Source of the DNA: Leptolinea sp.
GTDB taxonomy: Bacteria > Chloroflexota > Anaerolineae > Anaerolineales > Anaerolineaceae
Assembly (NCBI GenBank): GCA_012515195.1
Contig: JAAYYW010000325.1
Coordinates: 1-36,497 of the forward strand
DNA: 36,497 bases
Direction: 5' to 3'
The stretch's first letter is position 1; each line of letters begins with the position of its first letter. A program made the position numbers and the translations under genes. Positions 359 through 10,823 of this stretch are shown one piece after another. The notes below the pieces were generated by a model. That model was not told the origin of the DNA, did no database searches, and worked only from the letters and a program-made list of their open reading frames with translations.

Positions 359-2038
359 TTATTCTTCTGTGCTAAAGGGAACCCAGGTAAGAATTGTCGT
401 ACCAGTTCCCGGCTCTGTAGTCAGTTCAAGATCCCCACCCACATTGTGAGCGCGGGTATGCATATTGGAAAGACCATGGCCCAGCGAAGTCTTCGTGCTT
501 TCCATGTCAAATCCCTTGCCATTATCCCTGATCTCCATGAGAACCCGATCGCCGGTTTTCCAAACCACCACATCTACTTTCTTGGCTTTGGCATGTTTCG
601 CGGCATTGGCCAGCGCCTCCTGACAGATATGGAATAATGCCAGAGCTTTGGAGGCCGGCAGTTTATCAAGACCGTCGGATGGGCCGCTGACGTGAGCTTC
701 TGCCAGCGTATTGGCCCGAAATTCATTAACCAATCGCTGAAGTCCCTGCATCAAATTCTCATCACTTAATTGACGTGGACGCAGGTCAAGGATGTAATTT
801 CGGATATCACGGATTGTGTTGTTCAATCCGTTTATCGATTGGTCTATGCGTTCCTTAGACTGTTGGGGGTCTTCTGAGAGTAACAGACGGGCATGTTCCA
901 GCGTTAAACCGACGGCATAGATGGATTGAATGATGCCATCGTGCAGATCCATGCCGATTCTTTCCCGTTCCTCCAAAACAGCCAGGCGGCGACTGTTGTT
1001 GTTATACCGCACATTTTCAAGCGCTGTCCCCATCCAGGACCCAATAGCCCCGATAAATTGCGTATCCAGATCTGTCAAAGGACGGTGGCCCAATACGGCA
1101 ACACACATGACACCCAGTACATTGCTTCGTCCCCTCAGTGGAAAACTGCCGATTTGATGAATTTTATTAAGTAAGACATAGTCGTGTAGCTCGGTTCCAT
1201 CATCCGGGCTGATCGTCATCACTTTGGGTAATCCGGTTTTGGCTGTCATCCCCACCATTCCCCGGCCAACAACGAAGACTTCATCTTTCCAAAGGGCTGG
1301 AACCATTTTCCCCCGGTGTAAAACCAGTTTCAGCCATTTTTCACCTTCCGGCCTTAAATACACCTCGCCGACTTTCAGATCGAGAAAATCCATCAATTGG
1401 GTCAGGGCGATCTTGATAATGGCTTCGATCTCTGTGGATGTGGCCAGGGTGGATGCCATGTTGTTTAGCAATGCTAAATTTTCATTCCGCCGGGTGAGGT
1501 CATGGTCACGTCTGATCAAGCGATCATGCAGACGGGCATTATTGATGGCAACGGCAGCATATCTGGCCAACTGTTCAATGACCAGCTGATCCTCATCTGT
1601 AAATTCTGTGCCATCTTTTTTGTCAGCCAGATAAATAACCCCCAGGTTTCGGTTCGCATGACGGATTGGCACACCCATAAATGATTTCATTCCAGGATGG
1701 TTGAATGGAAATCCGATATTCCTGGGATCAGATGCGATATTTTTTACACGGATTGTCTCACTGGCACACATCAATTCACCGATCAGTCCCATACCGATCG
1801 GTTGCTGATCCATGCTTTGCATATTAGATACTAAAAGACCAGCAGGGAAAAATTTATCCAATTTTCCTGTATCACTTAAGATTCCCAGAGCTCCGTACTG
1901 GCTTTCCATGAGCTGACAGGCCTGGTTGGCAATCCGTTCATACAGAGACTCAATGGATACATCCTGCATTAATTGAATGGTTGCCTGATGAAGCGCCGTC
2001 ATCTTCGACTCATAAGATGCGCGCGAGCTTTTTGTCAA
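359..2038 (-). CDS. Cytoplasmic GAF-GAF sensor histidine kinase (NarL/HisKA_3 family)
   Basis: Two GAF-like regions, HisKA_3 motif (ERERIGMDLHDGIIQSIYAVGLTLE) and HATPase (NAAKHAKAKKVDV..DNGKGFD). The track start at 2101 is TTG; a better start is TTG at 2038 (MTKSSRAS...), 5 nt after GGAGG. Confidence 0.92.
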   Translation of the reverse strand: MTKSSRASYESKMTALHQATIQLMQDVSIESLYERIANQACQLMESQYGALGILSDTGKLDKFFPAGLLVSNMQSMDQQPIGMGLIGELMCASETIRVKNIASDPRNIGFPFNHPGMKSFMGVPIRHANRNLGVIYLADKKDGTEFTDEDQLVIEQLARYAAVAINNARLHDRLIRRDHDLTRRNENLALLNNMASTLATSTEIEAIIKIALTQLMDFLDLKVGEVYLRPEGEKWLKLVLHRGKMVPALWKDEVFVVGRGMVGMTAKTGLPKVMTISPDDGTELHDYVLLNKIHQIGSFPLRGRSNVLGVMCVAVLGHRPLTDLDTQFIGAIGSWMGTALENVRYNNNSRRLAVLEERERIGMDLHDGIIQSIYAVGLTLEHARLLLSEDPQQSKERIDQSINGLNNTIRDIRNYILDLRPRQLSDENLMQGLQRLVNEFRANTLAEAHVSGPSDGLDKLPASKALALFHICQEALANAAKHAKAKKVDVVVWKTGDRVLMEIRDNGKGFDMESTKTSLGHGLSNMHTRAHNVGGDLELTTEPGTGTTILTWVPFSTEE

Positions 2039-9381: not shown

Positions 9382-9455
9382 TGCCCCAGGCGGGAATTGA
9401 ACCCACAGCCTTAGCCTTAGGAGTGCTCTGCTCTGTCCATTTGAGCTACTGGGGC
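9382..9455 (-). tRNA. tRNA-Arg (anticodon CCT)
   Basis: GCCCCAG-TA-GCTC-AAATGGACA-GAGC-A-GAGCA-CTCCTAA-GGCTA-AGGCT-GTGGG-TTCAATT-CCCGC-CTGGGGC-A; perfect acceptor stem, good D and T arms, anticodon loop CTCCTAA. Confidence 0.9.
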
Positions 9456-9544: not shown

Positions 9545-10420
9545 CTATTCTGGCTGTTCAGCCGATAGATAATCCCACTGAATTACAACTGGGAGGTAGG
9601 TAGCAGACATTGCACCGAAACCTACCAGACCACCGCCTTTAATCTTGGTGTTGGATGTTTCAATGATCTTTGTTCCATTGACTTCATAGCTGAGTTTGGA
9701 CCCAACACAACTGAATTTTGATACATTGTCTCCGGTCACCCGGACGAGTTTCTGTTTGGCTACACCCTTCTTGATTGTCACATACGGATTTTTGAAGGGG
9801 TCATTATCACGGATGGATTTGTCGTATTGAAGCAGCTGCCACTCACCCTGGGCAGACATCCGGAATTCATACCAACCGGTATAGTCTTCGGAAGCGCGGC
9901 AGAGGAGCGCGACACCGTTCAGGCTCTGTCCATTGCTTTTCCATTTTGCCTCAATCACAACGTCTTCGACCAAAGAATCGTTGATGAATTTATAGGCATA
10001 GGTCTCATTATCACGGATTTTCCAATCCATTATCCCATCCTGCACGAGGGGTGGTTCTGTTTGCATTTGATCGACTGTGACAGCCTGGGTTGTGGTGTAA
10101 ATTTCCTCGGTGTAATTGTCGCTCTCCTCGTCAAAATCATCACGGAAACTGAACCCCTGTTCTTCTTCCTCAACCACAGGTTCTTCTGCCGCAGGTTCCT
10201 CTGCAACAGGTTCCTCGACGATCGGTTCTTCAACAACTGGTTCCTCAACAACTGGTTCTTCAACAACCGGCTCTTCAACAACCGGTTCCTCAACCACAGG
10301 TTCTACGATGACGGGTTCTTCAACTGGTTCTTCTGCTTTGGATGATTTCCCACCGGGCAGTGAACAGGCGGTCAGTATTAGAACCAGAATCAAACCTACT
10401 ACTACGAGCTTCTTTGACAT
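9545..10420 (-). CDS. Lipoprotein with EEPVV repeats and C-terminal LamG/DUF1080-like domain
   Basis: Lipobox LTAC at residue 19; EEPVV-type pentapeptide run; FSFRDDFDEESDNYTEE...VVIEAKWKSNGQSLNGVALLCRASEDYTGWYEFRM. Confidence 0.8.
   Translation of the reverse strand: MSKKLVVVGLILVLILTACSLPGGKSSKAEEPVEEPVIVEPVVEEPVVEEPVVEEPVVEEPVVEEPIVEEPVAEEPAAEEPVVEEEEQGFSFRDDFDEESDNYTEEIYTTTQAVTVDQMQTEPPLVQDGIMDWKIRDNETYAYKFINDSLVEDVVIEAKWKSNGQSLNGVALLCRASEDYTGWYEFRMSAQGEWQLLQYDKSIRDNDPFKNPYVTIKKGVAKQKLVRVTGDNVSKFSCVGSKLSYEVNGTKIIETSNTKIKGGGLVGFGAMSATYLPVVIQWDYLSAEQPE
10157..10333 (-). repeat. Degenerate 15-bp tandem repeat encoding EEPVV pentapeptides
   Basis: About 11 imperfect copies of the 15-nt unit within the lipoprotein coding sequence. 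Confidence 0.9.
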
Positions 10421-10537: not shown

Positions 10538-10788
10538 GACAAAAAAGAAACCCGAGTCAAGCTCGGGTTTCATATGGAACATGAACAGCATTCCCGGACA
10601 AATTTATTTTGGACGCATATCCTGTTGCCAGGAGCCGCCACATCGGGTACGGCGCGTCAAAACCAAACACGGATTGCATTCTAACAATCCTGAACGGGGT
10701 AGCGAATGCTAGCTACCTCTGAGAATATAGGTTTTTTGGAGAATTGACCTCCATCCCTGGAGCCCTCAATTTAGAAAGCCGTTCATGC
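10538..10788 (-). ncRNA. Candidate structured small RNA, family not recognised
   Basis: Promoter-like TTGAAT-N17-TACAGT (10823-10795), closing helix 10778-10787/10580-10589, internal hairpins, possible kissing loop and an intrinsic terminator at 10547-10571. No competing convincing ORF. Confidence 0.75.
10547..10571 (-). terminator. Intrinsic terminator of the candidate ncRNA
   Basis: On the minus strand: GAAACCCGAG-CTTGA-CTCGGGTTTC then TTTTTTGTC; perfect 10-bp stem. Confidence 0.92.
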
Positions 10789-10794
10789 AAATTC

Positions 10795-10823
10795 ACTGTA
10801 GCACGGTGGTGATAAAAATTCAA
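10795..10823 (-). promoter_or_regulatory. Sigma70-like promoter for the candidate ncRNA
   Basis: Minus strand TTGAAT-(17 nt)-TACAGT with extended -10 TG (TGCTACAGT); predicted start ~10788 coincides with the 5' arm of the closing helix. Confidence 0.65.

Follow-up and report, generated by a model that had tools for sequence, protein, structure and literature searches.

Between two protein genes on the minus strand of the Leptolinea sp. contig JAAYYW010000325.1, some 210-250 bases very probably constitute a free-standing RNA gene, the fold of which has been preserved in at least eight genera of the Anaerolineaceae. We put the probability that a conserved structured RNA exists at this Leptolinea locus at about 0.93. 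In the window, that is, the whole stretch of 36,497 nucleotides that was analysed, the apparent transcription unit occupies positions 10541-10823 (minus strand) and comprises a promoter, a folded body of approximately 210 nt closed by the long-range helix P1, and a 10-bp terminator. Judged from comparative sequence analysis, this RNA belongs to a new family of stand-alone structured bacterial RNA, found so far only in Anaerolineaceae.

The promoter (10795-10823, minus strand) exhibits a -35 box TTGAAT (10823-10818), a 17-nt spacer and an extended -10 element TG-n-TACAGT (10803-10795), the TG preceding the hexamer TACAGT at 10800-10795. The earlier note, whose minus-strand coordinates agree with a re-reading of the sequence, had proposed these boxes; they are present, and at a fixed distance in all 15 homologs, but taken alone they do not rise above chance and were not listed by a consensus scan of the window. 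A -10-like box, of the extended TGnTA type in most cases, is found 4-5 nt upstream of the P1 start TTGCATG in 15 of 15 homologs from eight genera, and a TTG-containing -35-like box lies upstream of P1 in most of them. As the -10 box stands at this fixed distance before P1, the predicted transcript (10541-10790) should start at the foot of P1, at about 10790-10788, and would end in the T run; the part matched by the covariance models corresponds to the folded body (10790-10578). The proposed perfect 10-bp terminator with its U run was recovered by a scan of the window. It reads GAAACCCGAG-CTTGA-CTCGGGTTTC-TTTTTT (10541-10571, minus strand), with the 10-bp stem at 10571-10547 followed by six T, and its hairpin covaries within Leptolinea. 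Separate terminator hairpins, mutually unrelated but occupying the same place, are present in Leptolinea and in the genera g32 and g25, and several other genera exhibit a U run immediately 3' of P1. A short reading frame beginning in P1 (ATGAACGGC...) was considered as a coding gene and rejected, because its start codon, frame and length are all unconserved across homologs, with ACG in place of ATG in g30.

With regard to the fold, the 263-nt segment has a minimum free energy (MFE) of -93.4 kcal/mol (z -4.65), which none of 200 shuffles equalled, so that the structure goes beyond chance. The 15 homologs have folding z values from -2.3 to -8.2, the weakest being that of genome G088, which folds weakly alone (2 of 150 shuffles equally low). 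The 5' strand of P1, GCATGAACGGC (10778-10788, minus strand), pairs with its 3' strand, GCTGTTCATGT (10589-10579). The 10-bp helix described previously (10787-10778 with 10589-10580) is thus present, and P1 continues to 10788/10579 and also includes an inner part. Further hairpins listed from the letters are likewise present, namely P3, GGTAGC/GCTACC (10698-10717), P4, GGATTG/CAATCC (10671-10690), and a three-way junction (10612-10658) in which P5, GACGC/GCGTC, encloses P5a, GCCG/CGGC (10653-10650 with 10637-10634), and P5b, TCCTG/CAGGA (10633-10629 with 10624-10620). An AATTGA/TCAATT helix that was also listed is not supported, as only 3/6 and 2/6 of its pairs form in two Leptolinea congeners. 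The MFE fold has in this region a P2 domain (10720-10768) made of TGAGGG/TTCTCA with an inner TGGAGG/TCTCCA; the pairing of TGAGGG (10768-10763) with TTCTCA (10725-10720), with TGGAGG/TCTCC within, fits all four Leptolinea better. At the position of P3, most other genera exhibit a hairpin of other sequence, and the strands of P4 differ yet remain complementary elsewhere, e.g., GGGTAC/GTACCC, GGGGC/GCCCC and AGAGGTT/AACCTCT. As the middle region aligns poorly across genera, the P2-P4 hairpins between P1 and P5 are predicted from single-sequence folds and not from cross-genus covariation. Outside P1, sequence conservation is highest in the P5 junction.

In the three other Leptolinea genomes, the segment shows 80-84% identity and is flanked by the same two genes, for the MFS protein and the lipoprotein. 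Identity of the neighbouring proteins is 58-86%, and the DNA flanking the RNA barely aligns between these genomes. A first covariance model, built on the four Leptolinea sequences, gave weak matches in two further genera, and two more genera were recognised by eye, searching from tRNA-Arg(CCU), the common neighbour of those weak matches. Rebuilt and iterated models located the RNA in 15 genomes from eight Anaerolineaceae genera. The homolog of G088 (L123), which was used in no model, scores 67 bits. A match in G151 (L124) of 114 nt, covering P1 only (E 0.0017), was excluded as doubtful. No match was obtained outside the Anaerolineaceae among 399 genomes from the order (family members included) and 399 from the phylum. 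In these scans, the first-look filter limited scoring to six candidates per genome, so that the distribution given here is a minimum. A search of 399 genomes with the motif GCGCC..GGCTCCTG..AGGA alone confirmed no new genus, and most of the other matches differ in spacing and sequence. Loci anchored on the MFS gene in other genera contained no homolog of the RNA, and viral contigs scanned with the neighbouring MFS protein gave nothing.

The conservation looked for in relatives is accompanied by compensatory base changes. In a MAFFT alignment (A6) of 10 sequences, 94.9% of the cells of the 28 pairs of P1, P5, P5a and P5b are paired. Ten of these pairs changed on both sides, compared with a shuffle mean of 4.3 (0 of 500 as high), and the covariation score is 0.33, against 0.04-0.13 for slid partners. 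In alignments of 14 and 15 sequences, two-sided changes affect 12 of the 28 pairs, 96.1% of cells are paired and the score is 0.31-0.32; since these larger alignments were fitted to the covariance model, the 10-sequence MAFFT result and the held-out homolog of G088 are the cleaner evidence. Among the 15 sequences, two-sided changes occur in 8 of the 14 modelled pairs of P1, with replacements among C-G, U-A, G-C and A-U, in 3 of 4 pairs of P5 and in 1 of 4 pairs of P5a. Such compensatory changes across genera are what is expected of a stand-alone structured non-coding RNA family.

The genes that surround the RNA differ between genera, and this bears on three other readings of the locus. In Leptolinea, the lipoprotein gene lies downstream on the same strand, between the RNA and tRNA-Arg(CCU), and the RNA could then be a cis-acting leader (riboswitch or attenuator) of that gene, its terminator serving as expression platform. 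However, in five other genera (g24, g30, g18, g10 and g2), tRNA-Arg(CCU) follows immediately on the same strand and the lipoprotein gene is missing, and in the unrelated surroundings of g32 and g25 the RNA is followed by a LuxR-type regulator gene and a convergent gene, respectively. In addition, the predicted folds offer no alternative anti-terminator pairing, and P1 and the terminator coexist in them. As no single downstream gene or function accompanies the RNA throughout, membership among riboswitches and cis leaders was rejected; because the contexts change between genera, the RNA is very unlikely to be the leader of one gene, and action in trans would follow. An element tied to tRNA-Arg(CCU), either a processing leader or a regulator, would be in keeping with the adjacency in those five genera. 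This is only marginally less improbable, as the tRNA (9382-9455, minus strand) is served by a TATAAT-type promoter of its own, in Leptolinea a gene and a terminator intervene, and no tRNA-Arg(CCU) is present in the stretches examined around the RNA in g32 and g25. From its gene contexts, the RNA is not a leader of the lipoprotein gene, and it does not belong to tRNA-Arg(CCU), its usual neighbour. A miniature inverted-repeat transposable element, with the strands of P1 as terminal inverted repeats, is the least credible reading of all. The ends of P1 do form a near-inverted repeat in the DNA, and the model weakly matches the antisense strand, but each genome has a single strong copy, all Leptolinea have it at the same gene position, conservation extends to the promoter outside the repeat, the internal P5 covaries, and no match was found in phages or plasmids.

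Some further observations concern the neighbourhood of tRNA-Arg(CCU). A gene for a YacP-like NYN-domain protein (PF05991) is located upstream of this tRNA in several genera (L045, 5692-6168; L044, 2185-2667; L114, L091, L092 and L082), and the two are separated by an RNA gene, either of the present type or of another. The other type is a second candidate RNA of approximately 150 nt, present between the YacP-like gene and the tRNA in three other Anaerolineaceae genera (L082, 321-476; L091, motif at 1667-1682, minus strand; L092, motif at 1650-1665, minus strand). It comprises a hairpin, a long stem, a conserved ATTCCCTCCCT or AATCCCTCCCT, which is mostly unpaired in two of three folds, and a strong last hairpin. 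No Rfam match was obtained for L091 and L092. The C-rich motif could bind Shine-Dalgarno sequences. The lipoprotein gene beside the RNA in the window (9545-10420, minus strand) encodes a long EEPVVEEPVV repeat after the signal peptide, and a similar-looking gene also occurs upstream of tRNA-Arg(CCU) in G010.

The RNA does not correspond to a catalogued one. At the Rfam 15 cut-offs, only the downstream tRNA was matched in the window, and a permissive scan of the intergenic region yielded only sub-threshold hairpin scores at chance level, mostly around the terminator hairpin. Rfam scans of the homologous loci gave no match to the RNA, and no description of it, or of such RNAs in Anaerolineaceae, was found in open-licence papers. 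The claim of an unrecognised RNA, without the signatures of 6S, RNase P, tmRNA, SRP and common riboswitches, is supported, since no Rfam 15 family reaches its cut-off at the locus.

What the RNA does may be considered from the location of its conserved bases. Across genera, these are GCATGaGC/GCTCATG at the base of P1 and GCCG/CGGC with TCCTG/CAGGA in P5a and P5b. No stretch of at least four unpaired bases is conserved in this way, and nearly every GGA triplet is base-paired in the predicted folds. Because conservation lies in helices, with no conserved unpaired run and with GGA paired, a folded surface may be what is recognised, most simply by a protein. We propose that the locus is a stand-alone gene whose structured non-coding RNA measures about 210 nt, or about 250 nt once the terminator is included. 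Comparison of the homologs shows a long P1 that joins both ends and a conserved three-way junction, P5/P5a/P5b. Its 3' end would be formed by the separate terminator, or by P1 followed by a U run. The folded RNA would act in trans. Most likely it would be either the RNA component of a ribonucleoprotein or a decoy or regulator to which protein binds, and contact would be made through the sequence-conserved base of P1 and the P5 junction. We give this protein-binding mechanism about even odds. A trans-acting antisense sRNA, pairing with mRNAs through loops or single strands, with targets and seeds that differ by genus, is possible, at clearly lower odds. Its own promoter and intrinsic terminator, a size in the sRNA range and variable middle hairpins would all suit such an sRNA, as would the presence, in the same slot of other genera, of another candidate sRNA whose C-rich motif is unpaired. 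On the other hand, a 190-219-nt body whose two ends are held together by P1 is atypical of antisense sRNAs, and the absence of a conserved unpaired run, together with the paired GGA, speaks against both a universal antisense seed and a CsrA sponge. A known class that has diverged beyond recognition by Rfam (6S, RNase P RNA, tmRNA, SRP or Y RNA) is as improbable as a cis-acting leader. Although single copy, paired ends and retention across genera are housekeeping-like traits, most of these classes are accounted for elsewhere. A true 6S RNA is found at another locus in three congeners (G001-G003; none was found in the incomplete assembly of the window's own genome), and the RNase P RNA (RF00010) gene is located elsewhere in all four Leptolinea, with 251-273 bits. 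The tmRNA (RF00023), which has tRNA-like ends with a tag reading frame, is encoded elsewhere in 8/8 carrier genomes tested. No Rfam SRP model matches the locus in strict or relaxed scans, and Ro60/TROVE (PF05731) is present in none of the 15 carrier genomes; five of 147 genomes of the family have Ro60, all of them non-carriers.

The Anaerolineaceae gain a structured RNA family that is well supported and not contained in Rfam 15. As its surfaces are conserved, its promoter is fixed and Leptolinea tardivitalis YMTK-2 carries it, its function can be tested directly.

Among known RNAs, Chloroflexi-1 (RF01698), an orphan structured RNA listed from Chloroflexus aggregans (Weinberg et al. 2010, PMC2864571), is likewise a candidate structured RNA from Chloroflexota with no assigned function, but its model gives no match at the Leptolinea locus. 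Sequestering sRNAs of the CsrB/RsmZ type are similarly free-standing and multi-hairpin, and GGA triplets are present here as well. However, CsrA titration requires exposed GGA, and 13 of the 15 homologs have no fully unpaired GGA in their MFE fold, the other two having 1-2; a CsrB-type sponge was rejected on this near absence of exposed motifs. Bacterial Y RNA (YrlA), which acts with Ro60 (Rsr), combines a sequence-conserved end helix with a branched module, as the RNA described here does, but no Rfam match was obtained in the present case and Ro60 is missing from all carriers. 6S RNA (RF00013) is the counterpart in being stand-alone, of about 200 nt, single copy and closed by a long helix joining its ends. 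Whereas 6S RNA is rod-shaped, with one central bubble resembling an open promoter, the homologs described here have a multi-branched predicted fold and do not match the 6S model. We tentatively suggest that this might be a ribonucleoprotein RNA which is specific to the lineage and whose molecular role is new. It would then represent a housekeeping-like class separate from 6S, tmRNA, RNase P, SRP and Y RNA, in which the base of P1 and the P5 junction might bind a protein so far not recognised as RNA-binding.
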